Shown: positions 5,066 through 21,306 of the stretch, piece by piece
Layout of the letters: the number at the start of each line of letters is the position of its first letter
How positions within the stretch are numbered: the first letter of the stretch is position 1
From: a virus
Strand: one strand, 5' to 3'
IMG/VR virus record: IMGVR_UViG_3300027734_000295
Coordinates: 1-25,162 of that record
Length of the DNA: 25,162 bases
Notes under the pieces: model-generated
The model's database searches: none
What the model saw: the letters and a program-made list of their open reading frames with translations, nothing else
What the model was told of the DNA's origin: nothing
Program-made: the position numbers and the translations under genes

Positions 5066-5090
5066 CACCCAGTTGCTCTTAGTATACTAC
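5066..5090 (-). promoter_or_regulatory. Late promoter element, copy c (before 261-residue protein)
   Basis: On the minus strand TATACT occupies positions 5-10 of the element and CTGGGTG positions 19-25, exactly as in the copies at 8279-8303 and 21282-21306. Here the bases before the hexamer are TAG rather than TGA. No TTGACA-like -35 is seen 16-18 bases upstream. The GTG start lies 17 bases beyond the element. Confidence 0.65.
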
Positions 5091-5108
5091 ATTTAATAAT
5101 ATTTAACG

Positions 5109-5657
5109 CTAATTTAAAAGTATCGCCTTGTAATAATATATTGATATATCGTCATTTACTGTGCCCTCACCTGTAAATTTAAGAATAACGTTATTAGCAA
5201 TACTTTCACTTGATGTGTTTGTATCTACTACAGAAGTTCCACCGTTATATGAGAAATTTGCATAGCTCATCTGGGATCCGCCACCATTAAAGATTATCTC
5301 TGCTTGAAGTGACCAGTCTTTATTGTTCATAGCGATAGCACCACTAGAGAATACTGTCGTGCTACCAAACTTTAATTTAAGGGTTTTGTTATTGGCATTA
5401 GCGTTAGTTTGTCCGCAAGCAAATATTAATATAGAAGTACCTATTTGGGATAAGGTACCAAAGTTTATGGTGGTCGACATTAAATCAGTTTCTGCTGTTC
5501 CTGCGTTACCAACTGGCCCGTTCTGAGACGCTAGCTTGTAAGGGGCTTGAGATAACTGTCCATCAAGACGAGAGAACGTGTTTAGAAGTTCTGTACGTAA
5601 CTGTCCAGATTGAGTATTGATGTTTATGTTGGGGGTTATGGAGCGAAAGCCGGCCAT
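5109..5657 (-). CDS. Beta-rich structural protein, possible head or tail fibre
   Basis: A 182-residue protein. It opens with a polar helix (R-T-E-L-L-N-T-F-S-R-L-D-G-Q-L) after an Asn/Ile-rich N-terminus. The rest is predicted beta sandwich: alternating hydrophobic residues, many Ser/Thr/Asn/Gly turns, closing with D-I-S-I-Y-Y-Y-K-A-I-L-L. This looks like a short phage fibre or decoration domain of jelly-roll type. It directly follows the nozzle gene (TAATG overlap at 5657) and is the last gene before promoter copy c. SD support is weak, so translation may be coupled to the nozzle gene. No specific family was recognised. Confidence 0.5.
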   Translation of the reverse strand: MAGFRSITPNININTQSGQLRTELLNTFSRLDGQLSQAPYKLASQNGPVGNAGTAETDLMSTTINFGTLSQIGTSILIFACGQTNANANNKTLKLKFGSTTVFSSGAIAMNNKDWSLQAEIIFNGGGSQMSYANFSYNGGTSVVDTNTSSESIANNVILKFTGEGTVNDDISIYYYKAILLN

Positions 5658-7624
5658 TATTCAATCCGTCTTGATCTAAATTGTAGGAGATAGCTAAGTA
5701 TTTCTACTGGTGTATCAACACCTGTTTGCTCGAATCTAATCTGATGCCAGAAAGCTTCTGACCCTTGTAGGATTGTAGGCGTAGAAACCGTTGAGCTTCC
5801 CCACACTGTAACGTTGTCCGTCCAGACCGTACCGCCTCCCCATGATGTTCCAGAAGCCTGTGCAGATATTGTGTATTGTAAAGGAACGTTTCCTTTTTGA
5901 TCCATGTCTATGCTGACCGATAGGTCGTAGGGTTGCGTCTGCAGTCTGATAGATGGAAGTACACGTCTTAAAAATATCTTGTGAATACCGTCACCAAAGT
6001 ATTTAGTCCAGTATTTAAAGGCAATTGGACGTCCCATATCTGAATATGCTTGCTCTGCGTAATATATAGATCCTACTTGTGAAGATCCTTCATATAACTC
6101 TTCGCTTTCGTTAACGAAAGACTTATCTACATAAGTGTTTGAGTCTCTTAGCCAGACACGGTTTATATCGTCCCAGAGAATGCAAGAGTCGTTAGTCACA
6201 GCTATACCAGCAGGATAATAAAGTCTGTAGTAGTTGGCGTGATATACAGCAGATGCTTTAGTTTTATCTGACATGTTATTAACTTCTGTCTGTATAGGGT
6301 CACTTACTAGTTCGTCTGCGGAACCGTTATATCGGTACACTCCATCGTCATTTAAGAAGTATATGTGGTTAGGGCTAGTCGCAATTGACGCTTGATTTAC
6401 TGCGCCTTTCTTTCCAGAAGATTGCCTTAATACAAAGTTGCCTGGATCATCACCAAATAATACATACTTAGTTTTTCTAGTAAATATGATTAGGTTATCT
6501 TGGAAGACCATAAGTCCTGTAATTGGATCACCTGACTTAGGAGAAGGAGCATAAACTATATTGGTGGAAGTATATTTATTATATTCACCAAGATCAGAGT
6601 ACTTAAGTAAAGTTGGGTTGTCTTTATCTACGACCCATAGTCTGTTTTTATGAAATATCACAAACTTAGATATAGGTATGGTTCCTGTATATCCAGATGA
6701 TGCGCTTACATCTTGCCACGTTGTACCATCGTATTGTTGCGGAGTGTCGACACCGTTACAGACATATAGAACGTCATTGGACTGTGCAAAGGCATATGAT
6801 GTTGCGCTTGACGATAAACCTGTTTTTAGTGCTGTTAGCGAACCGTTAACGTCAGAAACAGAATAAACCGCAGTACCAACGGCAATGATAGTTTTAGCTG
6901 TTGCGTTAGATGGAGTATATCGTATACCTCCAAGTAAGGGCTTATTGGTCGATACATATGTTTTGCAATTTAAATCAAATGTAGTAGTGGCCCAAGAACC
7001 GCCCTGGTTAGAAGAAGTCTTAGCTGTAGTGGCTGCAGTAGTAGATGACCACTTGTAGTCTCCAGTGCCACCTTCTTGCATATATGCGACTATCCAATAA
7101 CTAGTACCGCTTGACACCACAGGAGCCTCTACAAAGCGTGCTGTTTCATAAACGTAACTTGCGGTAATCTCACTTGATAAGATTGAACTAGAGGCAAGCA
7201 GAGTGCTTGGACTCCCACCAGAGTCTGAGTATATAGCTACTTCAAGGTGTTGTGATGGGTTTGTTCCGTACTTTAAGTTAAGTTCAACTTTAGTTAAACG
7301 TCCCGTAGCACCCGCAGTAAATTTCTTAGCGTTCCATGTAGATGTTCCAATCGATTGATCTGCAGCACCAGTCACAGTTGTTTGTTGTTGATCAACTGTT
7401 TCGCCTACAGGTACAGAATAAAAGCCTGGGCCTTTGCGTGTTCCAATAGCTACTCGTCTATCGGATGCATTGCGAGCGTATAATCGCACGTTATAGAAAT
7501 ACGGCGAATCTGAATCTTTCATTTGAGTATATGGAGCGGTCGTATTAAGACCAGAGAAAGTCTGTATCAACTTCTCTGTCGCTCGTCTCGCTGTCGGTGG
7601 AGAGGCAACTCTACGTATTCTCAT
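5657..7624 (-). CDS. Tail nozzle (gp12-like) protein, beta-propeller
   Basis: A 655-residue protein. From about residue 240 it repeats propeller-blade motifs: N-D-V-L-Y-V-C-N-G-V-D near 283, F-H-K-N-R-L-W-V-V-D near 324, F-Q-D-N-L-I-I-F-T-R-K-T-K-Y-V-L-F-G and then H-I-Y-F-L-N-D-D-G-V-Y-R-Y-N-G. This pattern is typical of podovirus tail-tubular-B/nozzle proteins (T7 gp12, P22 gp10 type), which form the DNA exit channel below the adaptor. The N-terminus (R-R-V-A-S-P-P...F-S-G-L-N-T-T, residues 1-75) matches the usual opening. An extra beta-sandwich of about 145 residues (about 80-225) sits between them. It follows the adaptor gene by one base. Family identity comes from pattern recognition, not alignment. 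Confidence 0.75.
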   Translation of the reverse strand: MRIRRVASPPTARRATEKLIQTFSGLNTTAPYTQMKDSDSPYFYNVRLYARNASDRRVAIGTRKGPGFYSVPVGETVDQQQTTVTGAADQSIGTSTWNAKKFTAGATGRLTKVELNLKYGTNPSQHLEVAIYSDSGGSPSTLLASSSILSSEITASYVYETARFVEAPVVSSGTSYWIVAYMQEGGTGDYKWSSTTAATTAKTSSNQGGSWATTTFDLNCKTYVSTNKPLLGGIRYTPSNATAKTIIAVGTAVYSVSDVNGSLTALKTGLSSSATSYAFAQSNDVLYVCNGVDTPQQYDGTTWQDVSASSGYTGTIPISKFVIFHKNRLWVVDKDNPTLLKYSDLGEYNKYTSTNIVYAPSPKSGDPITGLMVFQDNLIIFTRKTKYVLFGDDPGNFVLRQSSGKKGAVNQASIATSPNHIYFLNDDGVYRYNGSADELVSDPIQTEVNNMSDKTKASAVYHANYYRLYYPAGIAVTNDSCILWDDINRVWLRDSNTYVDKSFVNESEELYEGSSQVGSIYYAEQAYSDMGRPIAFKYWTKYFGDGIHKIFLRRVLPSIRLQTQPYDLSVSIDMDQKGNVPLQYTISAQASGTSWGGGTVWTDNVTVWGSSTVSTPTILQGSEAFWHQIRFEQTGVDTPVEILSYLLQFRSRRIE

Positions 7625-7625
7625 T

Positions 7626-8267
7626 TTATACTCTTACTCTCGCACCTGGTACGTTTGCTTGTACATCTACTTGTCTAGTGGAATACCTAGTAGTAAAAGC
7701 TTCTAATAGATCAGCATATCGATTAGCGTATTGTGAAGCATAGTCAAAATCTTCTTTTTGTTCGTAAATTCTTATTTTTGCCCCTAAGATAAGTAGTTCC
7801 TCAAAAGGTTCAGGTATAGCAGGTACGTCTGAAGCGGATGACATCTGTGTTACTGATTTAACATAATCAAAAGTTAATGTGTATGTCTGATCTGAAAGAG
7901 TCGAGAACTCTACACTAGTCCAGTAAGTCCAGTTGCTAAGTTGACCAGTTGTTATTACCGCTGGATATTGATCTCTAAAATCATTTGGTGTCATGTAATA
8001 GTTTTTTAAGTTTACAGCTAAACCTACTGGAGAAGTTATTCTTAGGTTAATAAATCGCTGTAAGTCTGTTGGAAGTGCGGTAGCAAAGGTATTGGTTCCA
8101 GCAGTCACTGTGTTAGTGCTTGAAGCAGAGTTAAGTGTAATGTCAAAGGTGTTAAAAATTGACTGTTGGGTATAGTTTAATGCGTCTCCTGCAATAGTTG
8201 TACTTAAGTTAGCATCACCAACTTGTGTCTGTAATTTTGTTTTAAGGTCTCCGAAGATGTAACTCAT
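7626..8267 (-). CDS. Head-tail adaptor (gp11-like) protein
   Basis: A 213-residue protein. An N-terminal helix and a C-terminal helical segment (EPFEELLILGAKIRIYEQ, then Y-A-S-Q-Y-A-N-R-Y-A-D-L-L-E-A-F) flank a central beta domain with P-T-D-L-Q-R-F-I-N-L-R and a long Y-T-L-T-F-D-Y strand. This is the architecture of the tail-tubular-A/phage adaptor family, a ring between portal and nozzle. Its place directly upstream of the nozzle gene is the classic podovirus order. The start has AAGGA six bases upstream, and the gene heads a transcript from the promoter element at 8279-8303. Confidence 0.72.
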   Translation of the reverse strand: MSYIFGDLKTKLQTQVGDANLSTTIAGDALNYTQQSIFNTFDITLNSASSTNTVTAGTNTFATALPTDLQRFINLRITSPVGLAVNLKNYYMTPNDFRDQYPAVITTGQLSNWTYWTSVEFSTLSDQTYTLTFDYVKSVTQMSSASDVPAIPEPFEELLILGAKIRIYEQKEDFDYASQYANRYADLLEAFTTRYSTRQVDVQANVPGARVRV

Positions 8268-8278
8268 TATAATCCTTA

Positions 8279-8303
8279 CACCCAGTTATTAATATTGTAT
8301 CAC
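8279..8303 (-). promoter_or_regulatory. Late promoter element, copy a (before adaptor)
   Basis: Minus strand: TGATACAAT (extended -10, TGn then TACAAT at element positions 5-10) followed at fixed distance by CTGGGTG (positions 19-25). It fills most of the 37-base gap between the tailspike stop and the adaptor gene. An SD (AAGGA) lies just after the CTGGGTG. No -35 resembling TTGACA was seen. Confidence 0.65.
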
Positions 8304-8304
8304 G

Positions 8305-10740
8305 TTATTTAATTGCCGCTAGTTCTGCATCGTCTGCTGCATCTTGTAATACTAAACCTTTTTGTCCTGTGGTGTATGTATCAATATCACTCCAGACTGC
8401 TACGCGAGATTGGTCAGGTATAGAAGAGTAATCGGCCGCAACGATAATTGGGCTGATATGTCCGTTATCCCATAGGTCTAGCCCTGCTACTTTGTTAGTA
8501 AGTCCAGCGTCATATATGTCATCAAGGAATGCGTAAGCCCCAGCTGTAGCGGTAAATGCGGTTATAACTACTGTTGCGTATCTACTGTCGCTAGAGGTGT
8601 AATTAGCAGTTAGTGTCCACGGCAACCAAGCTCCTGTAGTAGTAGCCATTGTGACAGTATCGTCAGGCGATGCAGTAAGCAAAGTATCTGGTAGATACAA
8701 GGATACGTTTAATACTCCAGAGCTAAATGTGGCATTACGATACAAGTAACCATAGACCTGTACCTGAGATGTAGGGTTAGCAGGTACTTTGAATGTCATT
8801 GCTGCTCCAGCAGTAGAGTTCTCAGGCTTGATTGCTACAGCTAGTGAGCCTGCAGTCCTTACAGTGGTATCTGTTAGTCCTGAACCACTTGACCAGAATG
8901 AGCCCTTATTAGAATACCAGCGGTGAGATGATGAGTTTGTCCCAAAGTCTTGGAATGCTATATCTGAACCATCAAGCTGGTTTAAGTACCCACTTATTAG
9001 AGTGGCAGAGGCAAAGGTACAATCCTTAAATAGTGCGGTGTTGTAGGTGGTAGTAAGAGTTAAGATATCTATCACATTGGTAAATAGCGTTCCAAAATTA
9101 CAATTAGTAAATAATATTGCTACTGCTGAGCTAAAATAAATTCCGTTAGTTCTGGCAGCATTTACTGTGCAGTCCTTAAAAGTAATGTTGTTTGAGCTAC
9201 TAACATATATAGCGGCGATTGCTGCGGTGTTAGAACCATTAGCTCCGTATGAATGGCAATTATCAAAAATTACGTTTGATGAGTTTGTTCTTACTGAGAA
9301 TGATGAACCGCTAACAGCTGCACCTGCTCCTCCAAAATCTAAACAATTGTAAAATGTCTGACCTGAACATGTAAGAGTACCAATGGCAGCGTTCGATGTG
9401 TTGGTACAAAGATTATTATATGCAACTACATCTGTAATTGTAGCGGCGGTAGTACAGCTGTTAATGTTTAATGTATTTCTTGTACCAGCAGAGTTTTGAT
9501 ATAAGACTGCCTTATCCATCGTATCTACGCTTGCAGCTGTGTTCTTAAAGTTAAGTCCGTGTGCTGAGGCTGCACTAGAATATTCCCATCGTGTTAATCC
9601 AAAGTCTGATGTTAATAGAGTGCTTTGTGAATATACTTTATATCCTCTGGTCGTTGTAAGAGGCTTTACGATGCAGTTTCTAGTTAAGTTAGCCATATGT
9701 ACCCCAGCAGCGTGCGTATAGGTCAGAGCGGCTTCTACGCCTCCAGCAGTAGCACTTAGTACAAATGAGGTAGATGAGTTGCGAGTAATGACATATCTTA
9801 TTTCGTTTTGGTTATAGGCAGTAGAAGTACCGATTACTATTTCATCACCAACAGCAGCGTCCCAGCCTGTAGATACAATTAAAGGGCTAGCAGCAGTTCC
9901 AAGTCCTGAAGCGTACTTAGTTGACGCTATATAATCTGCTCCTGTAAATGTAAGCTGACCGCCCCTGTTGCTTCCAGATGTGAAAATACCAAACTCACCG
10001 TTAGTCGTGTTGCAATCTATTGTTAAAGTAGAAACAAGAGCTTTGTTTGAAACATTACCAGACCAGTTAAAACTTCCTGTGCCAGAGCATATGATAGAAC
10101 CTCTAACTGTTAGAGAAGTTGATATTGTAGTGTCTGCTGATACTCCACCACCAGTTCCAACAGTTATAGCTGCTCCCATTGTAACTGCAGTTCCATCTTG
10201 CATCGTCTTATCTGTACCTGAACCAACAACGCTAGCAACAGCCCCAGAGAATACAAGTTGTTTGGCTGTAAGCCCTGAGTTGTGAAAGCCAGCTACCCAT
10301 ACATCATCATTAGCCGCTAAAGCTGAAGCCGTGTTATAAGTTGTAGTTGTCAAAAGAGTTGATGTAGTTGCAGCAAGAACTGTTCCTGATGTACCTCCTG
10401 AGCTATACACTTTAACTCTGTAAGCTGAGGCAGTCAGAGTTGCATAAGTATAAGGTGTTCCAAATCTAGCATAATTCCAGCCAAGCCTAATATCTGCGTT
10501 GTTCATTGTCGCACTGGCTTTTGTAACAGTAGACTCTTGCAATTCAACAATTACGTTAATAGTTGTAGGCAATGCTGAGACGTATACCCAAGCACCTGTA
10601 GCCGCATTGACTAAGTTAGGTGCAGTAAATCCAGCACTAGTAACACCAGCAGCGGTAATGTTCTGTGAAGTGGTAGTTACCGTACCAGTTCCGACGTGAG
10701 TATCATATGACCCAGCAGATACAAAAGTTCTTAATGCCAT
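8305..10740 (-). CDS. Tailspike-like protein with parallel beta-helix
   Basis: An 811-residue protein. Residues about 1-200 are beta-rich, Thr/Ala-rich attachment or accessory domains. Around 295-340 the segment G-D-E-I-V-I-G-T-S followed by S-S-T-S-F-V-L-S-A resembles the capping strands seen in G8/right-handed beta-helix proteins. From about 380 to 600, short repeats such as N-V-I-F-D-N-C-H-S-Y and N-I-T-F-K-D-C-T-V-N stack as in pectate-lyase-like parallel beta helices. The C-terminal 180 residues form further beta domains. Such trimers recognise and often degrade surface polysaccharide. I could not assign catalytic Asp/Glu residues. The start overlaps the preceding stop by TAATG, with GGAG upstream. 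It lies before the adaptor gene, an uncommon place for a spike. Confidence 0.75.
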   Translation of the reverse strand: MALRTFVSAGSYDTHVGTGTVTTTSQNITAAGVTSAGFTAPNLVNAATGAWVYVSALPTTINVIVELQESTVTKASATMNNADIRLGWNYARFGTPYTYATLTASAYRVKVYSSGGTSGTVLAATTSTLLTTTTYNTASALAANDDVWVAGFHNSGLTAKQLVFSGAVASVVGSGTDKTMQDGTAVTMGAAITVGTGGGVSADTTISTSLTVRGSIICSGTGSFNWSGNVSNKALVSTLTIDCNTTNGEFGIFTSGSNRGGQLTFTGADYIASTKYASGLGTAASPLIVSTGWDAAVGDEIVIGTSTAYNQNEIRYVITRNSSTSFVLSATAGGVEAALTYTHAAGVHMANLTRNCIVKPLTTTRGYKVYSQSTLLTSDFGLTRWEYSSAASAHGLNFKNTAASVDTMDKAVLYQNSAGTRNTLNINSCTTAATITDVVAYNNLCTNTSNAAIGTLTCSGQTFYNCLDFGGAGAAVSGSSFSVRTNSSNVIFDNCHSYGANGSNTAAIAAIYVSSSNNITFKDCTVNAARTNGIYFSSAVAILFTNCNFGTLFTNVIDILTLTTTYNTALFKDCTFASATLISGYLNQLDGSDIAFQDFGTNSSSHRWYSNKGSFWSSGSGLTDTTVRTAGSLAVAIKPENSTAGAAMTFKVPANPTSQVQVYGYLYRNATFSSGVLNVSLYLPDTLLTASPDDTVTMATTTGAWLPWTLTANYTSSDSRYATVVITAFTATAGAYAFLDDIYDAGLTNKVAGLDLWDNGHISPIIVAADYSSIPDQSRVAVWSDIDTYTTGQKGLVLQDAADDAELAAIK

Positions 10741-10955: not shown

Positions 10956-10970
10956 TATTTTTACTCCTTT

Positions 10971-11915: not shown

Positions 11916-11930
11916 GGAATATTTACCTAA

Positions 11931-11955
11931 CGCCCTGACAGGTTAAGTATATCAT
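11931..11955 (-). promoter_or_regulatory. Late promoter element, copy d (before 314-residue protein)
   Basis: Minus strand: TGATATACT with the hexamer at element positions 5-10, identical in phase to the portal copy. It is followed at positions 19-25 by CAGGGCG, a two-base variant of CTGGGTG. The TGA of the extended -10 is also the stop codon of the epimerase gene. No TTGACA-like -35 is visible. Confidence 0.6.
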
Positions 11956-12908
11956 ATGGATTGTAACCATTTAATTAACTTAGTAAATCCCTGTTTAGGT
12001 GTAATTTCTTCTGCAGATCCATAAACTTTATCGTACTTACTGCCGTCTGTCCTGCGTGACATAACACCCATTGGCTTATCTAGCAAGTATTTAAATTTAT
12101 TTCGCAGTTCTAGATCGCCTACTATCTCACAGCACATCTCTGCTATTTGAGTCACGTTGACTTCGGTCTCAGAAGCCACGTTTACAGGCCCTTCATATTT
12201 ATCAGATGATAATATTTTGTATATCCGTTTAACTGCATCATCAATGTAAAGGAATACTCTTTGCTGAGTACCGTCACCCCAGATCTCAATTTCGCTACCA
12301 TCTTTAGATGCCTTTAGTACTTTAGTAGCTATAGCCGTAGGAAACTTCATGCGTTCACCTTCCATCTCTTGGTAGGCACCATATATAGTGTCAAAGATAC
12401 CAACTCTAGCACTAAACGGTGCACGTTCACAAAGTCGTAGCATCATAAGTTTTTCCCAACCGTAACTCATGTCGCAGTTTGCTGGATACATCATGTCTTC
12501 TGTTAATGTAGGACTATCACTCTTATCGTTTAAATGTATTGGATAAATACAAGCGGAAGCAGAAAAGAACATCCTTTTTATTCCATGTTCATCCATTGCT
12601 TTTAAAACGTTAAGGTTTATCTGATGACTATTGATGTACGGATAGTAATCATTGCCTCCGTGGAAGTAACCTACACCTCCCATATCTGCAGCTAGTTGCA
12701 CGACCCAATCTGAATAATATAAAGAGTTATATACGTCTCTATATTCACAAAGATCAGCTACAACGATTTCGTCTGCCTTGCCCCACATGCTTTCTCTGTA
12801 CTCTGGAAAGTCTTTATCAACTGCACGAACCCAGTGACCCTTTTTCTTAAGATAAGCAATTAAATTACAGCCAATAAATCCACCACCGCCTAGTACTGTT
12901 ACTCTCAT
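11952..12908 (-). CDS. GDP-mannose 3,5-epimerase-like NAD-dependent epimerase
   Basis: A 318-residue extended short-chain dehydrogenase. The NAD-binding site is G7-x-x-G10-x-x-G13. The active-site couple is Y149-x-x-x-K153 (YGWEK). It carries features of GDP-mannose 3,5-epimerases: AADMGGVGY at about 73-81, SASACIYP at 116-123 with Cys120, R-V-G-I-F-D-T-I-Y-G, E-G-E-R-M-K188-F-P, and EIWGDGTQQRVFLYIDDAV. In the plant enzyme the equivalent Cys and Lys are the acid/base pair that epimerises C3 and C5, giving GDP-L-galactose. Other GDP- or dTDP-sugar epimerases or reductases remain possible. The start overlaps the preceding glycosyltransferase gene by ATGA and has AAAGG upstream. It is the last gene of the sugar cassette. 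Confidence 0.78.
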   Translation of the reverse strand: MRVTVLGGGGFIGCNLIAYLKKKGHWVRAVDKDFPEYRESMWGKADEIVVADLCEYRDVYNSLYYSDWVVQLAADMGGVGYFHGGNDYYPYINSHQINLNVLKAMDEHGIKRMFFSASACIYPIHLNDKSDSPTLTEDMMYPANCDMSYGWEKLMMLRLCERAPFSARVGIFDTIYGAYQEMEGERMKFPTAIATKVLKASKDGSEIEIWGDGTQQRVFLYIDDAVKRIYKILSSDKYEGPVNVASETEVNVTQIAEMCCEIVGDLELRNKFKYLLDKPMGVMSRRTDGSKYDKVYGSAEEITPKQGFTKLIKWLQSI

Positions 12909-13570
12909 TTCATTACCTTTCGTAGTTTAGTTGCATCGTCCATTCTTTCGCCAGCCATACTAAAATATATATCAGCAGTCTTATCTTCGTTCATGCGTGC
13001 ATATTTTTCTCTGTAAGTATCGTCTAGTTCTGTTTTAGCAAAGTCTGGGTGCATATGCTCTGTTAATATGTCTATGAATATATGACGATCTACAAGCTTT
13101 GCAACGTCGTTTATCCAGGTATCAGAGTAGTCACCAGAGAATACTGGAGGGCATATATAACCTAACGCATTAAACCAGTTCTTATGTACGAAACCATGGG
13201 TACCGTATTTACCGTCGTGTACTGATCCATCTTTACCAAACACGTAGCCAATCTTGTCTTCTAGTTTATCAAAAGTGTTTATGACTTCTCTATCCCAGTG
13301 CTTAGTTCTAAAGACAATATCATCTCCGCAGTACATCATAATGTTATTAGATGCTACTTCTGCACATTTGTTCCACATATCACTTAGCACTATTCGTTCA
13401 CCTTTTATAATCTTCATTGGTACTTTAAGGTTCTTGTAAGTATTGTCATCTTCGTCTATGTACAAAACAAGTTCAATCTCCATTGGTTTTTGTGCAGTTC
13501 TGACAACTGAGTCCCATAATCGTTTAATGTTATGAGGTCTTTTTCTTGTAGGTATAAGTATGCTAATCAT
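12905..13570 (-). CDS. Glycosyltransferase, GT-A fold (GT2-like)
   Basis: A 221-residue protein from the ATG at 13570. It opens with the first strand of a GT-A domain (MISILIPTRKRP), then V-L-Y-I-D-E-D-D, and a metal-binding D-x-D-like motif G82-D83-D84 in N-N-I-M-M-Y-C-G-D-D-I-V-F. Later parts contain G-T-H-G-F-V and a C-terminal helical tail. It should transfer a sugar from a nucleotide donor, but the acceptor is unknown. An upstream in-frame ATG at 13600 would add MDKESPRMAP. I prefer 13570 because it makes an ATGA overlap with the dehydratase stop and begins exactly at strand one. Neither start has a convincing SD, which fits translational coupling. Confidence 0.78.
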   Translation of the reverse strand: MISILIPTRKRPHNIKRLWDSVVRTAQKPMEIELVLYIDEDDNTYKNLKVPMKIIKGERIVLSDMWNKCAEVASNNIMMYCGDDIVFRTKHWDREVINTFDKLEDKIGYVFGKDGSVHDGKYGTHGFVHKNWFNALGYICPPVFSGDYSDTWINDVAKLVDRHIFIDILTEHMHPDFAKTELDDTYREKYARMNEDKTADIYFSMAGERMDDATKLRKVMK

Positions 13571-14562
13571 AGGAGCCATTCTGGGTGATTCTTTGTCCAT
13601 TCTATGGTTGATTTCAGACTTTTTTCAAAGCTGAATGGGGCCACCCACCCCAATTCTTTAAGTTTAGTATTATCTAGTCCATAACGTAGGTCATGTCCAG
13701 GGCGTGATGAGTGAAAATCAACTAACTCATAATGAAGTTCTGCTCCATAAAATTTAGCTATTAATTCAGCCATCTCTAGGTTATTGACTTCTTTTTCACC
13801 AACGATATTAAAACGGTTTAGATCTTCTGCTGGGTATCGAGTAGGAACGACATTCTTTAACAAAAAACATAATGCGTCTGCTTGATTACGCGCATGTAGA
13901 TAATATCGAGATCCTGGTTGTCCGTCTTTGCTAGCGTGAATGGTAACTTTTTCTCCATTGGCAATTTGCTTCATGACTTTCGGTACAAATTTCTCAGGGT
14001 CCTGCATTTCTCCAATAATGTTCATGGTATTGGTGATAACTATTGGAAGGTTGTAGGTTCTCCAGTATGCGTAGCAAATAGCTTCTTGTGCGGCTTTTGA
14101 CGCTGAATACGGATTGCTTGGGCGGTAAGGTTCTCCTTCTTTGTGGTTGTGATCAGTAGCTGGCCCATATACTTCGTCCGTAGATATATGAATAAATTTC
14201 TTTACATTACTTTTTTTGAGCCACTCAAGCATAGTCAAAATAAGCGCAACATTATTCTCGGTAAATTCTCTAGGATCGGTTATTGAGCGGTCTACGTGGC
14301 TCTCTGACGCTATGTTAAGTACATAGTCAACATCTTTTAGTTTTTGTTCAAACTGCTCGCTAAAAGGAACAGTGAGATCATGCCTAATCAATGTTAAACG
14401 GGATAGATCTTGATCACTAAGTTGCTGCGTGATACGATCGGTTTTACCCATGTGCCTGAATGAATCAATACCGATAATCTTCCAGTCAGTCGTCGTTAAC
14501 ACGTGTCGCAGGGTATGACTACCCATAAAACCGCCAATACCAGTAATAAGAACTGTTTTCAT
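13567..14562 (-). CDS. rmlB: dTDP-glucose 4,6-dehydratase-like enzyme
   Basis: A 331-residue extended short-chain dehydrogenase. G8-x-x-G11-x-x-G14 binds NAD. SESHVDRSI (about 86-94), ISTDEVYG with T128-D129-E130, and PYSASKAAQE with Y152 and K156 reproduce the RmlB active site, in which Asp-Glu eliminates water and Tyr-Lys drives hydride transfer. Product in the family: dTDP-4-keto-6-deoxyglucose, precursor of rhamnose, fucosamine and related sugars. The partner genes RmlA, RmlC and RmlD are not in the window, so donor and later steps must come from the host or from unseen genes. It is joined by ATGA overlaps to glycosyltransferases on both sides, with GGAG upstream. GDP-mannose or UDP-sugar dehydratase activity is an alternative. 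Confidence 0.82.
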   Translation of the reverse strand: MKTVLITGIGGFMGSHTLRHVLTTTDWKIIGIDSFRHMGKTDRITQQLSDQDLSRLTLIRHDLTVPFSEQFEQKLKDVDYVLNIASESHVDRSITDPREFTENNVALILTMLEWLKKSNVKKFIHISTDEVYGPATDHNHKEGEPYRPSNPYSASKAAQEAICYAYWRTYNLPIVITNTMNIIGEMQDPEKFVPKVMKQIANGEKVTIHASKDGQPGSRYYLHARNQADALCFLLKNVVPTRYPAEDLNRFNIVGEKEVNNLEMAELIAKFYGAELHYELVDFHSSRPGHDLRYGLDNTKLKELGWVAPFSFEKSLKSTIEWTKNHPEWLL

Positions 14563-15272
14563 TCTAATGTCTCCAAATATTTAAGTTCGTCATCATAACC
14601 ACGGTCATACATAGTTTTCTTGTAATACTCAGGATAATCTTTCCAGTTCTCTTTAGTAGCAAATGTCCAGCTTAGGCGTTCGTCCATATGTCCTACGATC
14701 CAGCCATCGTTCTTTATCTCTCGAGATAGGCGACTATCTTCTTGTGACCTAGAACGTGAGCCTTCCCAAGGAGCTTCGTTATATTTAATGCCTGTTTCAT
14801 ATATTCCACGTTTAATTATATTTGGGCCACCTACACAACCAGGCCATTCAATTACTCCCATGCCGTTATAATAGTTTGGAGTTTTATTCTCTCCACCGTC
14901 AAAGTCTAAGCCAAGCTGACCTAGTCTATCTATATTCTTAAAATAATCAGCTGCTCGTAAATCCCAACCTTTCTCAAAGTGCATATCATTGTCGAGTCGC
15001 ATTAAGTGTGTTGCCTGAGGATATTCCTGTAATCCCTTTTGCCAGCCGATATTTGTAGCTTTTCCTGGATAATAGTTATCTGGATTAAGAATTACTTTAT
15101 TAGCTCTATTACGTGTTACAAGATTCGCAAGATATTCCTTAGTTCCATCGGTAGAGTTGTTGTCTACGATTACTAGATAGTATGGTGTTTGTATAGTAGC
15201 CCACAGACTACGTAGCGTCTTTTTAGTATAGTCTAAACGATTATACGTAATCATCGCTATAAGTAACTTCAT
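14559..15272 (-). CDS. Glycosyltransferase family 2-like protein
   Basis: A 237-residue protein with a classic GT2 start: M-K-L-L-I-A-M-I-T-Y-N-R at 1-12, L-V-I-V-D-N-N-S-T-D-G-T at 33-44, and a D94-N-D96 metal/nucleotide-binding motif in M-R-L-D-N-D-M. After this come P-G-C-V-G-G-P-N-I-I-K-R and Q-E-D-S-R-L-S-R, the usual acceptor-side loop with a candidate catalytic E-D pair. It is a soluble cytoplasmic transferase with no membrane segment. The acceptor cannot be read. The ATG overlaps the preceding glycosyltransferase stop as ATGA and no SD is seen, so it is probably translated by coupling. Confidence 0.85.
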   Translation of the reverse strand: MKLLIAMITYNRLDYTKKTLRSLWATIQTPYYLVIVDNNSTDGTKEYLANLVTRNRANKVILNPDNYYPGKATNIGWQKGLQEYPQATHLMRLDNDMHFEKGWDLRAADYFKNIDRLGQLGLDFDGGENKTPNYYNGMGVIEWPGCVGGPNIIKRGIYETGIKYNEAPWEGSRSRSQEDSRLSREIKNDGWIVGHMDERLSWTFATKENWKDYPEYYKKTMYDRGYDDELKYLETLE

Positions 15273-16132
15273 AGATCTATATCGTTATCGTCAATAATAG
15301 TGAATCTTTTAGCTGGATATGTAGCTAAGCCCTGTGCGACTAGGTTGTCTGCGTGCTTCTGACTAGTAGTTACAGCACCTGTAGGAGTGTCTACTGTAAC
15401 AAGTTTTGTTTTAGCGCCTAACGCAATAGGCTGAGACTGTATAGCTTTTAGTCTCTTGTTCTTTATAATCTTCTTCCACACTTCAATATTATGAGCACCG
15501 TTGTTGCTTCCAGCTTTACCTAAGTTAATAAGTTTTCTTTGAGCTAACTTAATAGGAAGTACTTGTATTATGATTCCAGCTTTCCAAAGTTTAATGCTAA
15601 ACGTTATATCGTGTAGACCATATCCGTCACCTGATTCATTTTTGCTTGCTGTTAGTTTAACTGATTCACCGTAATTTAAGATTGACCAGCGTATCTTATC
15701 TGTAAAATATGGTTCTCTTAAGTTCTCAAAGACTCTTCTTTTAACTAATAAGCAACCAGTACCAGCAAACACTACACGACCGCCTTTATCGTAGAACACA
15801 GAGCCACGGCCATCTTTTGTTACGGGATAGTCACAGGTAATGACGTTTACATCTGCATCTAACATCTCTTGCAATACATTCGGTGGTAATACCATATCGT
15901 CTTCTATGTACCAAAAGTGAGTTACCTCTTCGTCTATAATCGCTCTGTTCGTTGGCCTAATAAAGCACTCAGGTATAGGTTTACCGTGTGAGAAAAATAT
16001 CTTGTGTGGTATACCTTTTAAGTTTTGCAGTATTTCATCTGCAGTTTCAGAAAACATTAAACCACGTGATGGTAATATTACTCCTACTTTTATGCCTTTA
16101 GGTATCTTGTGCCAAGTTTTATTTAACGACAT
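15269..16132 (-). CDS. Glycosyltransferase-like protein, copy 2 of tandem pair
   Basis: A 287-residue protein from the ATG at 16132. It shares with its upstream neighbour the block V-I-L-P-S-R-G-L-M-F-S-E-T, the metal-binding E-D-D-M-V-L-P, Y-G-L-H-D, and QRKLINLGKAGSNNGAHNI. The EDD motif and strand-one pattern indicate a GT-A glycosyltransferase fold. The copy has its own C-terminal tail of about 60 residues (T-K-L-V-T-V-D-T-P-T-G-A...). An earlier ATG at 16150 would add six residues. I chose 16132 because GGGAG lies eight bases before it. The gene overlaps the end of the first copy by 14 bases. Donor and acceptor are unknown. Confidence 0.75.
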   Translation of the reverse strand: MSLNKTWHKIPKGIKVGVILPSRGLMFSETADEILQNLKGIPHKIFFSHGKPIPECFIRPTNRAIIDEEVTHFWYIEDDMVLPPNVLQEMLDADVNVITCDYPVTKDGRGSVFYDKGGRVVFAGTGCLLVKRRVFENLREPYFTDKIRWSILNYGESVKLTASKNESGDGYGLHDITFSIKLWKAGIIIQVLPIKLAQRKLINLGKAGSNNGAHNIEVWKKIIKNKRLKAIQSQPIALGAKTKLVTVDTPTGAVTTSQKHADNLVAQGLATYPAKRFTIIDDNDIDL

Positions 16133-16967
16133 TGAATTGTCTCCCATCATTTAAGAACGGTTGATCATCTTCATCATATGAGATAAAAGGCGGTATCTCT
16201 TCCCAGAACTTTACTTTCTTAACCCGATTAAGTGCACCTCTAAACAGCTTGGAGTTTTCAGGGTTGATCATACCAGACACAAGATCTCTCCCAACTACAG
16301 TGATCTCTTTAATATTATGTGCGCCCTTATTAGAATGAACTTCGCCTAGTTTAACTAACTTCCTTTGGCCTGCGGTACGTTCAAGTGGATAAATAGGTAC
16401 TCCAGAAGAGTAGAGCACCATGCCAAAGTTTAAATCATGTAGTCCGTAAAAGACTTTAGTTAGCTTACGCGGCCAGAAGTGTATCGTATCTTTATCGATA
16501 AACGGATCAAATGTACGGTCTGTACGCCATATAGGTTTTTCAAGTTGTTCTAGTATCGGTCGTGCTACGAGGATAAAACCAGTACCAGTCCAGAACGCAA
16601 AACCCTCAGGATCGTGTAGGCAAGTAGAGTCACCATCTTGTTGGAAAGGATAGTCAAGCGCTACGACTGGATATTGTGCTGCAAACATTTCTTTTAGTAT
16701 GCCTTTAGGTAAAATCATGTCATCTTCACAGAAAAGCACAGCATAAACACTAGGGTCTTTCAAAGCACGCTCTGTGGGCTCATTAAAGCACTCTGGGAGG
16801 CTTTTGGCGTGTGCCCAGTATATTTCGTAGTCCATGCCCTCAAGTTCGCTTAGAAGCTCTTCAAATGTCTCAGAGAACATTAAACCCCTTGAAGGTAAAA
16901 CGACAGCTAGTTTAGTTGCCGTCGGGGTGGTCGGCTGATGTTGTTTCGCCGATGTTTGGGTTTTCAT
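16119..16967 (-). CDS. Glycosyltransferase-like protein, copy 1 of tandem pair
   Basis: A 282-residue protein. After a Gln/Thr-rich N-terminal extension (1-18) comes V-V-L-P-S-R-G-L-M-F-S-E-T, then F-C-E81-D82-D83-M-I-L-P, F-W-T-G-T-G-F-I-L-V, V-F-Y-G-L-H-D-L-N-F-G-M, and G-Q-R-K-L-V-K-L-G-E-V-H-S-N-K-G-A-H-N-I. It is a GT-A-type fold with an E-D-D metal site, paralogous to the following gene. It overlaps the preceding small gene by 56 bases. The SD before this ATG is poor, but no later ATG precedes the conserved block, so the true start may be slightly different. Confidence 0.75.
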   Translation of the reverse strand: MKTQTSAKQHQPTTPTATKLAVVLPSRGLMFSETFEELLSELEGMDYEIYWAHAKSLPECFNEPTERALKDPSVYAVLFCEDDMILPKGILKEMFAAQYPVVALDYPFQQDGDSTCLHDPEGFAFWTGTGFILVARPILEQLEKPIWRTDRTFDPFIDKDTIHFWPRKLTKVFYGLHDLNFGMVLYSSGVPIYPLERTAGQRKLVKLGEVHSNKGAHNIKEITVVGRDLVSGMINPENSKLFRGALNRVKKVKFWEEIPPFISYDEDDQPFLNDGRQFNVVK

Positions 16968-17259: not shown

Positions 17260-17280
17260 AATTGTTCCTTTAATTAACAT

Positions 17281-17315
17281 TAACACAATAATATAACGTA
17301 TTAAAAAAGGCAACG
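17281..17315 (-). promoter_or_regulatory. Candidate promoter for the sugar cassette
   Basis: On the minus strand TTGCCT is followed after 17 bases by TATTGT, about 30 bases before the ATG at 17259. Each box matches the sigma-70 consensus at four of six positions. A 12-base string TTAAATGTAGTA just upstream (about 17330-17341) is shared with promoter copy c, but the CTGGGTG part is absent. A new transcript start is needed here because of the terminator upstream. The exact boxes are uncertain. Confidence 0.3.
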
Positions 17316-17350
17316 ATAATATAACTTTTTACTACATTTAACAGATAACA

Positions 17351-17374
17351 AAAAAGAACCCCGAAGGGTTCCTT
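17351..17374 (-). terminator. Rho-independent terminator after the capsid gene
   Basis: Read on the minus strand: GAACCC, loop TTCG, GGGTTC, then a run of six T. The stem is six perfect pairs, extended by a G-T and two A-T pairs, closed by the very stable C(UUCG)G tetraloop. It starts 22 bases after the capsid stop codon, so it should end or reduce the head-gene transcript before the sugar cassette. Confidence 0.9.
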
Positions 17375-17395
17375 AATGTAGATCCTATTATTTTA

Positions 17396-18280
17396 TTAGG
17401 ATTTAACAACAAAACCGAAGTTGCTTCGTAGTGCGTTGTGTCCGTAAAGAACATCAACAGTTACGAGCCATCCAAGGTGTTCCTGCTTGTACTGCGCTTG
17501 AGTACGAGGTTGCATCTGCATAGCAATTGCCCATGCTTCCTTGTGGAAGAATAGGTGATTGTATTCATCAGTAGCTGTGTCTAGATAAACCAAGTTTTGG
17601 CTCATGTATACGTCAGCACCGTAGATGCGTCCGATTTTACCGTTAGCGATAGAGTTAGCGTCACCACCAACACCTAAAGCGTCATAACGAACATACTTGT
17701 CGATTGCAAGCATTTCTGCTTCACCCTTAGGGTGTACAACTAGAGCACGGTCAGAACGTGGAGCTTTGTTTTCACTTAGGTATCGGTTAACAGTCAAGAT
17801 GAGGTTGTCATTTAGAGCTGTTCCGTATGCACCGTAAGCTTGGCTCGCAGTTTTCCATGTAGTTGTCATGTTTGTAGCTAGGTCGCTGTCAATTTTCTCT
17901 GAGATTGCGTAAGCCGCAGCTTGTGTGTAATCGCTTCGAAGATCAAAAGCAGACTGTACTTTTACTAGGTCTTCAACAATGAATGAGCTTTCGTAGTGCT
18001 TGTTCAATGTGATAGTTGTTTTTGTTTCTGTGTTGTAGTTTAGCGTAACTACAGTGTTTTGAGCTTTTAGGTTCGCGCTAATTGCAGATACGTTTGGAAT
18101 TTCCAAAGTTTGTCCGCTAGATTGAACGTCAGCGTCATAATGCTTAATGAGTGGAAGAAGAACTAGATTGCTCTTTACGAACATTAATACTTCTTTTGAC
18201 CATACATTTGGGCGGAATACGCTACCAGCTGTTGCACCGATGTTTACGTTGCCAGAGTTATATGCACCTGTTGTTGCCAT
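17396..18280 (-). CDS. Major capsid protein (HK97-like fold)
   Basis: A 294-residue protein. It starts with a flexible Gly/Asn/Ala-rich arm, then V-W-S-K-E-V-L-M-F-V-K-S-N-L-V-L-L-P-L-I (about 26-45), G-Q-T-L-E-I-P-N-V (E-loop-like strand), Y-E-S-S-F-I-V-E-D-L-V-K, then R-A-L-V-V-H-P-K-G-E-A-E-M-L, G-K-I-G-R-I-Y-G-A-D-V-Y-M-S-Q-N and a final G-W-L-V-T-V-D-V-L-Y-G-H-N-A-L-R. This order (spine helix, P-domain, capsid turn near I-Y-G-A-D-V, final A-domain strand) is that of podovirus major capsid proteins. It follows the scaffold gene by 26 bases. The SD is weak (GAAAG). An intrinsic terminator follows. Confidence 0.9.
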   Translation of the reverse strand: MATTGAYNSGNVNIGATAGSVFRPNVWSKEVLMFVKSNLVLLPLIKHYDADVQSSGQTLEIPNVSAISANLKAQNTVVTLNYNTETKTTITLNKHYESSFIVEDLVKVQSAFDLRSDYTQAAAYAISEKIDSDLATNMTTTWKTASQAYGAYGTALNDNLILTVNRYLSENKAPRSDRALVVHPKGEAEMLAIDKYVRYDALGVGGDANSIANGKIGRIYGADVYMSQNLVYLDTATDEYNHLFFHKEAWAIAMQMQPRTQAQYKQEHLGWLVTVDVLYGHNALRSNFGFVVKS

Positions 18281-18306
18281 TTTATTTCTTTCAATTTATT
18301 AATTTA

Positions 18307-19083
18307 TTATTTCCCTGAGATAGCTTTATTGATTGCAGAATAATTCTTTTGAAACCATTCTTGGTCATTACGGTCTATTAATTCATAAACGTTTTGGTTG
18401 CTTATGACATTGGATTCGTAAGAACCTGCATTCGTTGCTGCCGCCAGTGGAGGTACGGCTTGTTGTTTCTGTGCAAGATTAGTAAGTGCTTCTCGACCAC
18501 CTTCCCGTTTTAAGTCTGCTTCTCGCGTAGGATCATTCCTAGCTAGGGCATATAAAACATCAAGATCATTCTGTAAGTGGGGTCGTTGTACTACAATTTC
18601 CGCCATCTTGCCTTCAAATTCTCTTGCTTCGGGTGTTGACTCCCAAAAACTATTCACTTTATTTTGAATTGTTAATTGATTCACCTGTACAGCTAGCTGA
18701 TCTACAGCACTGTCACCAGTATAGTCAATAAGCGGTTGATCCATCACAGCTGTGTTGTATTCTCGCGCTTTAAGGGTTGCCTCGTGCATTTTCTTTTCGG
18801 CTTCACGATACATGCTGGCCATCTTAACAGGATCTTCTAAAGGAAGTCCTTTCTTTTCTGCCCATGACTTTATATCGTCACCGTCGGCTTGTGTTGGTGC
18901 GGTTGCATCTTCAACGGCCGTGTCTGCACTCGGTTGGTCGTCTTGAGATGTGATAGGTTGTAGGTCTGGAGTTCCATTAGCATCCGTAGATATAATTTGC
19001 TCGTTTCCTTCTATCTTTACCGCCTCTGTTGGTTGTGTGGGTTGTGCTGAAACAGCGCCCTCCGTAGGGGTTGTGGTATCCAT
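18307..19083 (-). CDS. Capsid assembly scaffolding protein
   Basis: A 258-residue acidic protein. Residues 1-75 are disordered and Thr/Gln/Asp/Pro-rich; 75-215 are helical and charged (M-Y-R-E-A-E-K-K-M-H-E-A-T-L-K, then V-D-Q-L-A-V-Q-V-N-Q-L-T-I-Q-N-K). The C-terminus is a short helix ending in N-K-A-I-S-G-K. Composition, size and the slot between portal and capsid genes are those of phage scaffolds, which direct procapsid assembly and then leave. A fused protease is not seen. The start has AGGAG five to six bases upstream, in a leader that contains a hairpin and a weak copy of the late promoter element. Confidence 0.78.
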   Translation of the reverse strand: MDTTTPTEGAVSAQPTQPTEAVKIEGNEQIISTDANGTPDLQPITSQDDQPSADTAVEDATAPTQADGDDIKSWAEKKGLPLEDPVKMASMYREAEKKMHEATLKAREYNTAVMDQPLIDYTGDSAVDQLAVQVNQLTIQNKVNSFWESTPEAREFEGKMAEIVVQRPHLQNDLDVLYALARNDPTREADLKREGGREALTNLAQKQQAVPPLAAATNAGSYESNVISNQNVYELIDRNDQEWFQKNYSAINKAISGK

Positions 19084-19107
19084 CTTTACTCCTAATTGTT
19101 AATGTCT

Positions 19108-19132
19108 TGCCCAGAAATGAGGAGGATAAACT
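19108..19132 (-). promoter_or_regulatory. Weak late promoter element, copy e (before scaffold)
   Basis: Minus strand: TATCCT at element positions 5-10 and CTGGGCA at positions 19-25, the same spacing as the four better copies. There is no TGn before the hexamer. Because part of CTGGGC is also one arm of the leader hairpin, the match could be partly accidental. Confidence 0.35.
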
Positions 19133-19136
19133 GGGC
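19109..19136 (-). other. Leader hairpin upstream of the scaffold SD
   Basis: GCCCAG and CTGGGC form a six-pair stem with a 16-base loop. On the transcribed minus strand the loop contains TCCTCCT, complementary to the AGGAG SD of the scaffold gene located about 25 bases downstream. The arrangement could mask or expose that SD. It is visible in sequence, but the function is inference. Confidence 0.4.
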
Positions 19137-19147
19137 GACTTTTAGTT

Positions 19148-19381
19148 TTAATTGTCTTTATCCCCCTCATGCTTAGGTACGACTGCTAAAAATTGTAAAT
19201 GATCTATTGCCTTTATAACACCTCCTGCCTCTCGAAGCAAGCCAAAAGCGGTTTCAGCAGTTTTTGCCTCTGAAGCGTCATCTTGTAATCGTTGCTTAAC
19301 TATGTTTAATTCGTTTAAAAGTTGCTTACCTAATGGTGAAGAGAATAAACTCTTATATTGGTTAGACCAATTACTGTCCAC
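19148..19381 (-). CDS. Small helical protein between portal and scaffold
   Basis: A 77-residue protein from a GTG at 19381, which overlaps the portal stop by 11 bases. GGCGGACAAG precedes it. An in-frame ATG at 19417 would add twelve residues encoded within the Gly/Gln repeat of the portal tail, which I consider less likely. The body is helical: L-F-S-S-P-L-G-K-Q-L-L-N-E-L-N-I-V-K-Q-R-L, then T-A-E-T-A-F-G-L-L-R-E-A-G-G-V-I-K-A-I-D-H-L. I recall similar short conserved genes between portal and scaffold in other podovirus-like genomes, without an assigned function. Confidence 0.6.
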   Translation of the reverse strand: MDSNWSNQYKSLFSSPLGKQLLNELNIVKQRLQDDASEAKTAETAFGLLREAGGVIKAIDHLQFLAVVPKHEGDKDN

Positions 19382-21269
19382 CTTGTCCGCCTTGTGGCAT
19401 CTGTCCACCTTGAGCACCGCTCATTCCTTGCATACCTTGCATTGGCTGAGGAGGTGTAGTTGGGACTGGAGCAATTTGCTCACCATTAAGAGCCTGGTCT
19501 GACATTTGCTGAGTAGCTCTAGTCTCCATTGCGCCTTCGTGTGTAACAGAAGCTTGATAGCCTGATTCTTCTTCCATTTGTGCCTGGATATCTGGCGGTG
19601 CGTCTTTATAGTTAATAATTGTCTTAGGTTCACCGCTTCCAGCCTGCTTACTGCCTTGTTTGCCCTGAGCTTCTTGCATTAACTCTTCTTCGGTTTTAAC
19701 TAATGTCTCTACTTCTTTAGGATCTAGATTAAATCCTTTTTGGATAATGTATCTTGTAAGAGTAGCTTGATCTATGTAAGGGTTTCCAAGCATAGCGCTA
19801 TATAACTCTTTAAGATCACGCATCTTGAATCGTTTTTCGTCTTCTAGCGTTGATTTAAGCTTAATACGTGGCTCATAATCACCCTTAAACATATTAGGAT
19901 CAAATTCTTTCCAATTAATACCCTTATCACCGATTACACGGAACATTACTGGTGCTGTTACGTACAGTTGTACAAGCTGGAAGACTAGTTTTGCTAGTTG
20001 GTAGTATCCGCCATTCTCTAACATAGAAATAATTAGTCCAAATCGGCGTCCTGCACTGTTCTGCTGAGCTTTTACCTCAGTAGCAGTGGTTTCTCCACTC
20101 ATTGCTACACCTTTGAGTATTTCATCTATAGCAGTTGCTTCACGGATTTCATTCTTAATGTTAGTTCGCTCGTTAAAGACGTTTGAAGGAATAATAGGTT
20201 TCTGTACAGCCTGGTATGAACCTGGTTTAAATGGATATACGTTACCTGTTGCGGAACGCATCTTATCTAAATAGCTAGAATACTGTGGGTCAAGTTCCAT
20301 TTCAGGATCAATTGCCCATGATACAGCATCTATGTTCTGGTTAGTAAGGTCGTTTAAAAGTTCCTGGTGCTTAGCGATTGGCTCAATAACTGACTTACCG
20401 TAAAGTTGTGACTCATCTGGAGAGAAAGAATCAATTATATAAGAGAACATTCCAGTCGGGTTCTTATAGCCTAAGAATTGTTGACGTTGTTTGTAGTAGT
20501 TAATGTTTTCATAGATTACTTGCTCTCTGTTTCCAACGTAGATGACCTTATCACGTGTCTCGTAGCAGATAACTTCAATCTGGTTCTCGTCTTGAGGCAT
20601 CTCAGCATTGTTGCCCATTTCACTGTCTTTGTCTTGCTTGTCTGTTTCTTCACCTGAATCAAACTTGCCTAGTTTATCAAGGTTCTTGTATTTAGGTACG
20701 AACTCGCCAGTCTCTGGATCAATTACTTTTTCTTTTTCTAGTTCTTTTTTGTTAGCTAGGAATCTATGGCCCATATAGCCAGCGTTATCTCTGTTAAAGA
20801 ATGTTGCAGCTGGATCACAGAAGAAGTCACGAAGAGGGATTATATCAAGACAAGGATGGTCAATGTTCCAATATACTTTTAGTACGCTTGTACCTAGTTT
20901 AAACATTGCACGGTTGTGTTGTATGAGCTTAGGTGTCCACTGCCCTATGTCCCAGTAGTAAGACAGAAGAGCGTTTAATACTTCAGTGTTAACATCTTGT
21001 TCTGGCTTGGTAGCCATGTATTCAACTACAGGCTTATCTCCACTAGTTGCAGAGACCATTGTTTCTACTAAAGAGTATGACATTGGTACGAAAGTATCAG
21101 AGATACCGTTATATCCAACGTATACACGTTCTGAATTGTATAATTTGTTCATGTTCTGCCACTTATCGTGCCATGAACCAGAGCGATAGCTCCATGATGC
21201 GTTAAAGGCACTTACTACCTTATTTACTGTGTCGTCTGTATTCTTAGTTGTAGTTGTTTTTTTAATCAT
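19371..21269 (-). CDS. Portal protein
   Basis: A 632-residue protein from the ATG at 21269. Features of podovirus portals: early W-H-D-K-W-Q-N-M-N-K-L-Y-N, G-I-S-D-T-F-V-P-M-S-Y-S-L-V-E-T (wing), T-S-V-L-K-V-Y-W-N, P-L-R-D-F-F-C-D-P-A-A-T, then S-Q-L-Y-G-K-S-V-I-E-P-I-A-K-H-Q-E-L-L-N-D-L-T-N-Q-N (stem/crown region), and G-E-T-T-A-T-E-V-K-A-Q-Q-N-S-A. The dodecameric ring is the DNA entry and exit port and docks the terminase. The last 80 residues are low-complexity Gln/Met/Gly/Pro. A GTG at 21284 would add five residues but lies inside the conserved CTGGGTG of the promoter element, so I prefer 21269. No good SD is seen. Confidence 0.92.
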   Translation of the reverse strand: MIKKTTTTKNTDDTVNKVVSAFNASWSYRSGSWHDKWQNMNKLYNSERVYVGYNGISDTFVPMSYSLVETMVSATSGDKPVVEYMATKPEQDVNTEVLNALLSYYWDIGQWTPKLIQHNRAMFKLGTSVLKVYWNIDHPCLDIIPLRDFFCDPAATFFNRDNAGYMGHRFLANKKELEKEKVIDPETGEFVPKYKNLDKLGKFDSGEETDKQDKDSEMGNNAEMPQDENQIEVICYETRDKVIYVGNREQVIYENINYYKQRQQFLGYKNPTGMFSYIIDSFSPDESQLYGKSVIEPIAKHQELLNDLTNQNIDAVSWAIDPEMELDPQYSSYLDKMRSATGNVYPFKPGSYQAVQKPIIPSNVFNERTNIKNEIREATAIDEILKGVAMSGETTATEVKAQQNSAGRRFGLIISMLENGGYYQLAKLVFQLVQLYVTAPVMFRVIGDKGINWKEFDPNMFKGDYEPRIKLKSTLEDEKRFKMRDLKELYSAMLGNPYIDQATLTRYIIQKGFNLDPKEVETLVKTEEELMQEAQGKQGSKQAGSGEPKTIINYKDAPPDIQAQMEEESGYQASVTHEGAMETRATQQMSDQALNGEQIAPVPTTPPQPMQGMQGMSGAQGGQMPQGGQGGQ

Positions 21270-21281
21270 CAGTATAAGTTG

Positions 21282-21306
21282 CACCCAGCTGTTTTCAGTA
21301 TATCAC
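21282..21306 (-). promoter_or_regulatory. Late promoter element, copy b (before portal)
   Basis: Minus strand: TGATATACT, an extended -10 with TATACT at element positions 5-10, then CTGGGTG at positions 19-25, 12 bases before the portal ATG. It lies just after the terminase stop. The bases 16-18 upstream of the hexamer are only A/T, without a TTGACA-like box. Confidence 0.7.

Follow-up and report, generated by a model that had tools for sequence, protein, structure and literature searches.

In small phages transcribed by host RNA polymerase, hundreds of capsid proteins stand against about a dozen portal proteins, and this ratio is usually ascribed to the strength of promoters and ribosome-binding sites. 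Control by RNA pairing is known from the small RNAs of bacteria and phages and from long-range mRNA pairing in RNA phages, where a seed of 8-13 nt lies near the 5' end of the target mRNA and seed and targets covary. Covarying complementarity between regulator and target and a conserved RNA structure on the side of the regulator, in this case a hairpin, are also found in the phages studied here. Unlike a small RNA, the hairpin proposed as partner belongs to a late mRNA of a double-stranded DNA phage, and its targets would be several virion mRNAs of the same phage. T7-type promoters resemble the element described below in that they are short and conserved and carry GGG near the start, but they are rigid units of about 23 bp, whereas spacing is variable here, the -10 region is of the sigma70 type and a polymerase gene was not found in the searches given below.

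For the Thermus phage P23-45 (gp39 system), middle and late extended -10 promoters have been described (PMC7403470). Late genes are read from them by host RNA polymerase, as proposed here; unlike here, a transcribed tag with a complementary hairpin does not figure in the account consulted (PMC7403470). Cluster K mycobacteriophages carry SAS/ESAS elements, i.e., short asymmetric repeats just before start codons, mostly in one orientation and with subcluster-specific variants of the associated repeats (PMC3203893); SAS are mostly located outside the structural module (PMC12699233). The likeness lies in a repeated short motif near gene starts. However, the tags share only GGG and a nearby Shine-Dalgarno sequence with SAS and differ from the SAS consensus GGGATAGGAGCCC, and, unlike for the tags, no complementary RNA partner is described for SAS in these two sources (PMC3203893, PMC12699233). 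Our literature searches yielded no account of tags with a complementary hairpin, an absence that is no proof. If true, a conserved RNA that pairs with the 5' ends of virion mRNAs would add a layer of control that is separate and directly testable, and repeated 5' tags together with their complement in a covarying hairpin would offer a computational route to such systems where no cultured host is available.

Gene content of the window and its relatives

The window, i.e., the whole stretch of 25,162 nucleotides analysed here, is the 25 kb virus record IMGVR_UViG_3300027734_000295, apparently a fragment. Its genes for terminase, portal, scaffold, major capsid, tail and internal virion proteins all lie on the minus strand. 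The scaffold gene lacks a profile match and was assigned, as a presumptive one, from its position between portal and capsid. A block of glycosyltransferase-like and nucleotide-sugar epimerase genes (11952-16967), mostly conserved in relatives, resides between the capsid and tail genes. The major capsid protein retrieved 71 related IMG/VR contigs (identity 64-95%), and the comparison set consisted of about 70 related viral contigs from uncultured phages. Saccharibacteria are a plausible candidate host of the window phage because one Candidatus Saccharibacteria MAG accounts, with two of its contigs, for two of the three matches in GTDB genomes.

Predicted late promoters

The original prediction had named five copies of a 25-base element, and all five sequences are present at the positions given. 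The window has exactly four sites at which TATACT or TACAAT at element positions 5-10 is combined with C[TA]GGG[TC]G at positions 19-25, each in an intergenic gap and on the minus strand, against 0.0 expected (300 shuffles). Judged by their sequence, these copies (5066-5090, 8279-8303, 11931-11955 and 21282-21306, minus strand) are promoters of the sigma70 type. Their -10 hexamer is close to the consensus and usually TGn-extended, and they have no -35 element. As originally noted, TGA precedes the hexamer in three copies and a TTGACA-like -35 is absent from all. The features are as follows, the anti-tag being the complement found in the hairpin described further below:

21297..21302, minus strand: -10 hexamer TATACT of the predicted portal promoter, preceded by TGA (extended -10), conserved in relatives
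21282..21290, minus strand: 5' tag AGCTGGGTG, predicted +1 to +9 of the portal mRNA
11946..11951, minus strand: -10 hexamer TATACT upstream of the 314-aa gene, preceded by TGA
11931..11939, minus strand: 5' tag variant GTCAGGGCG, the same variant as in relative G002
8294..8299, minus strand: -10 hexamer TACAAT of the predicted promoter of the tail-protein (tail-tube-A-like) gene, preceded by TGA
8279..8287, minus strand: 5' tag AACTGGGTG, eight Watson-Crick pairs and one G-U pair with the anti-tag, -14.0 kcal/mol
5081..5086, minus strand: -10 hexamer TATACT of the predicted promoter of the 261-aa gene
5066..5074, minus strand: 5' tag AACTGGGTG, duplex with the anti-tag -14.0 kcal/mol

Normal sigma70 spacing (hexamer, 6 nt, +1) places the predicted start at element position 17. 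CTGGGTG, originally taken for the transcript start itself, would therefore represent +3 to +9 of the RNA. It was also considered as a Shine-Dalgarno sequence and rejected because a separate one usually comes after it. The GGG of the tag lies 15-24 nt before the start codon. In the portal reading frame the listed GTG start falls inside the tag, and the conserved start is an ATG at about 21266-21269. The two sequences originally listed as variants fared differently: 11931-11955 stands as a promoter copy, while 19108-19132 is no variant of the promoter element because it lacks a -10 hexamer and forms the 3' half of an RNA hairpin; it was rejected as a promoter. The claim that every longer minus-strand gap in the structural region except the one with the terminator holds a copy was right as far as it was taken: the six minus-strand gaps above 30 nt comprise four promoters, one hairpin and one terminator. 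The terminator, at 17314-17395 behind the capsid gene, has the ordinary form of a hairpin with a T run. In relatives, a tagged promoter often comes directly after the capsid terminator; the window has none there.

Alignment of the orthologous gaps of relatives revealed the same element before the portal, 314-aa, tail-tube-A-like and 261-aa genes. The broader consensus reads TGnTATAAT, 5 nt, a pyrimidine, A (predicted +1) and a tag ending in GGG[CT]. In relatives, the strict form of the motif is present about 60 times near gene starts over 22 contigs, with about one such case expected (shuffled sequence yields about 1.5 strict matches per contig anywhere, 3-4% of them near a start). TGn is found at 46 of 64 tagged promoters (72%), as compared with 38 of 277 untagged -10-like sites near starts (14%), and in the window at three of the four copies. 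A TTGACA-like -35 is no commoner at tagged promoters than at untagged sites.

The element had tentatively been attributed to an alternative sigma factor or an activator, which the analysis does not support, and by analogy with T7 a promoter for a single-subunit phage RNA polymerase may be added. A special sigma factor or polymerase would agree with the G-rich conserved sequence near the start and with the missing -35, yet we regard it as very improbable. The hexamer is close to TATAAT, carries TGn and lies about 6 nt before a predicted purine start, features that are partly built into the search pattern, and the distance from hexamer to GGG is not rigid but ranges from 9 to 15 nt across tagged promoters. 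PF00940 was detected in none of 30 related contigs, many of them fragments, and the control genomes likewise gave no match; neither a sigma factor nor a phage RNA polymerase appeared among the best 25 Pfam and the best 25 PHROG families for 88 early-region proteins. With the gene not found in these searches and the spacing variable, the single-subunit polymerase promoter was set aside. The search for a shared early regulator ended similarly, as only NinG-like and KGG-like proteins are widespread and neither is clearly regulatory.

The notion of a late regulon, on the other hand, is supported. The element resides at promoters of virion genes and was not seen at early genes of relatives, and tagged leaders are absent from 388 kb of candidate host-group (Saccharibacteria-order) DNA (0 of 48 extended -10 sites near starts, versus 47 of 87 in the phages), which led us to discard a host promoter feature.

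Concerted change of the 5' tags

Within one genome, the tags of the late promoters, which would constitute the first 9-12 nt of the mRNAs, change together. Tags of different genes within one genome are identical at 6.90 of 9 positions and those of the same gene in different genomes at 5.50 of 9 (permutation p<2e-4). The control regions, i.e., the six-base spacer before +1 (p=0.58) and the nine bases downstream of the tag (p=0.10), are not concerted. In the pair G009/G010, AACTGAG replaces AACTGGG at three tagged promoters. The tag is apparently read by something that acts in trans.

The group G023/L049/L053/L057/L063 has neither tag nor anti-tag. A group without tag or hairpin (L053, L057, L058, L063 and G023) carries a promoter-like sequence in front of the scaffold gene; its conserved leader, AGAGC[AG]TATGTACTTCT, may represent a further 5' tag.

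A hairpin upstream of the scaffold gene

The scaffold-upstream gap of the relatives holds a stable hairpin in nearly all cases and no promoter of the tagged type. In the window, it consists of the following parts:

19157..19168, minus strand: 5' arm GAGGGGGATAAA of stem S1, within the last codons of the 89-aa gene
19129..19137, minus strand: anti-tag CGCCCAGTT, a loop sequence with complementarity to the 5' tags, its last two bases also in the stem
19119..19130, minus strand: 3' arm TTTATCCTCCTC of stem S1 in the hairpin fold
19109..19114, minus strand: S2b, CTGGGC, which can base-pair in cis with the loop sequence GCCCAG, inside the fifth copy 19108-19132

In an alignment of nine hairpin sequences 99% of cells pair, seven of the ten S1 pairs exhibit compensatory changes, and the covariation score was reached by none of 500 shuffles. 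A conserved GGGC-containing strand 3' of S1 is able to pair with the loop (S2); in the window's clade, loop lengths suggest that S2 and full S1 are largely exclusive. Neither the window hairpin nor that of G005 matched a curated Rfam family. In the cultured distant relative Pf-WMP3 there is no room for a hairpin because the portal and scaffold genes are only 4 nt apart.

Complementarity of tag and anti-tag

The hairpin loop contains a stretch that is complementary, in antiparallel orientation, to the tag found in its own genome. Tag and anti-tag are AACTGGGTG/CGCCCAGTT in the window (G000), AATACGGGC/GCCCGTATT in G003-G005, AACATGGGC/GCCCATGTT in G006, AACTGAGTG/CGCTCAGTT in G009 and ACAAGGCGGG/CCTGCCTTGT in G019, and AACTGAGT/GCTCAGTT is a further pair. 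The existence of at least six different tag sequences, each with its own anti-tag, is the strongest argument. When the whole 170 nt of the scaffold region were scanned, in own and foreign genomes alike, the tag scored 19.5 on average in its own genome and 15.3 in others (permutation p=5e-5), and the version based on duplex energies gave p=2e-5; the permutations keep some phylogenetic dependence. A test on unique pairs (p=1e-5) is biased because the anti-tags were picked by best match, and it carries no weight in our argument. On the sense strand, anti-tags are nearly unique to the scaffold element. In several clades the tag match runs past the bases shared with S2, so that complementarity is not a by-product of S2 pairing. 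The matches are not uniform: clade C (G018/G019) has a one-base bulge or mismatch, several AACTGGGC genomes (G008, G011, G012) match over 6 nt only, and the window variant GTCAGGGCG fits the anti-tag less well (duplex -10.5 kcal/mol). In the GGGN core, 20 deviations are G-U pairs and two are mismatches, the last position being partly fixed by the search pattern.

A different explanation takes the tag as a DNA site (+1 to +12) for a phage repressor or activator and the scaffold region as a further, inverted copy. Protein and sites would co-evolve and the tags would therefore change in concert, a pattern compatible with any trans-acting factor, and small candidate DNA-binding proteins exist, namely WhiB in G016, G018 and G019 and a small helix-turn-helix-like protein in G002-G005 and G016. 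We judge this explanation unlikely, given that the inverted copy sits in constant orientation in the loop of a covarying RNA hairpin, that core deviations are mostly compatible with G-U pairing and that neither candidate gene is common to all genomes.

Control by WhiB/WhiA, considered because of the clade C WhiB genes and a GACAC-like tag in one clade, was rejected with WhiB present in three of 29 phage records and GACAC not general. The WhiB-family genes adjoin NinG in one phage clade (G016, 9177-9461, plus strand; G018, 5130-5402, minus strand; G019, 29678-29950, plus strand). The family has been described as exclusive to Actinobacteria (PMC6282962). WhiB matches were also obtained in eight of 15 Saccharibacteria-order genomes, and these could stem from contamination or prophages.

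Replication on additional contigs

After the first analysis, new contigs were found via the portal proteins of two other clades. Tag and anti-tag are AGGCTGG/CCAGCCT in L172, ACTAGGCAGG/CCTGCCTGGT in L173, CGGGCGAG/CTCGCCCG in L176 and GGGCTAGT/ACTAGCCC in L213. A distant clade, whose portal is 34-36% identical, has an unrelated tag (TGGCGATGYG/CGCATCGCCA), and over 10-13 nt its tag TGGCGATGYGTCG is complementary to the scaffold-upstream element. With one contig per lineage, the replication test gave p=1e-4. L175, L212 and L215, also among the new contigs, have no tag and showed no match.

The full tag of the distant clade occurs mainly at one promoter per genome, that of the portal. Action in trans on many mRNAs may therefore be limited to the window's group. 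The same distribution suggests that the oldest form was the 5' end of the portal-scaffold-capsid mRNA pairing with its own interior, and that other virion mRNAs were added in the window's group.

A model for control of virion protein production

Pairing between tag and hairpin RNA is well supported by these comparisons; the start sites, the pairing in the cell and the direction of its effect are inferred. The explanation that we consider likely as a whole combines sigma70-type tagged late mRNAs, pairing of tag and hairpin and, probably, a limit on translation. Host sigma70-type RNA polymerase would transcribe the late virion genes from extended -10 promoters, and each mRNA would begin with a fixed tag of 9-12 nt, located 15-24 nt ahead of the start codon. 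The hairpin in the portal-scaffold intergenic RNA would display the complement of the tag in its loop. The two would pair in cis within the portal-scaffold-capsid mRNA; in the window's group, the hairpin would also pair in trans with the tags of other late mRNAs. The most probable consequence is restricted translation of the low-copy gene that comes first on each tagged mRNA (portal, tail protein and others including internal proteins), while scaffold and capsid, untagged and downstream of the hairpin, would stay open.

We favor a limit on translation because the tag lies just 5' of the ribosome-binding sites of low-copy genes and because the proteins that such phages require in hundreds of copies, scaffold and capsid, are encoded downstream of the hairpin and are untagged. 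Position does not prove translational repression since the tag leaves the Shine-Dalgarno sequence uncovered, and pairing may also affect mRNA stability. The effect could also run in the opposite direction, with 5' ends of late mRNAs opening the hairpin or preventing S2 and thus activating the production or processing of scaffold and capsid after the onset of late transcription. We regard this as possible though less likely: S2b can pair with the loop and would compete with the tag for the same bases, and the window stem ends next to the stop codon of the preceding gene, where it would be disturbed by ribosomes, but in the sequences inspected the scaffold ribosome-binding site lies outside both S1 and S2.

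Our results suggest that the phage may tune virion protein production by RNA-RNA pairing and not by a special promoter factor. We lean, by a little, towards the wider statement that a double-stranded DNA phage sets the ratio of its virion proteins by a handshake between mRNAs, in which a hairpin in the head-gene mRNA would meet matching 5' tags on its own and other virion mRNAs and the pair would have been rewritten many times with complementarity kept.

Further observations in relatives

A second anti-tag-like stretch, CACCCTGCCTTGTG, is present at 22979 (plus strand) of G018, where it lies among tail genes and on the strand opposite to them. In five contigs (G021, L038, L045, L061 and L063) the match to the major capsid protein starts only at residue 23-25 and is preceded by a sequence resembling the end of a group I intron (GAAGCGATAGTCTG...). 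The capsid gene of these relatives may thus contain an intron at this site.
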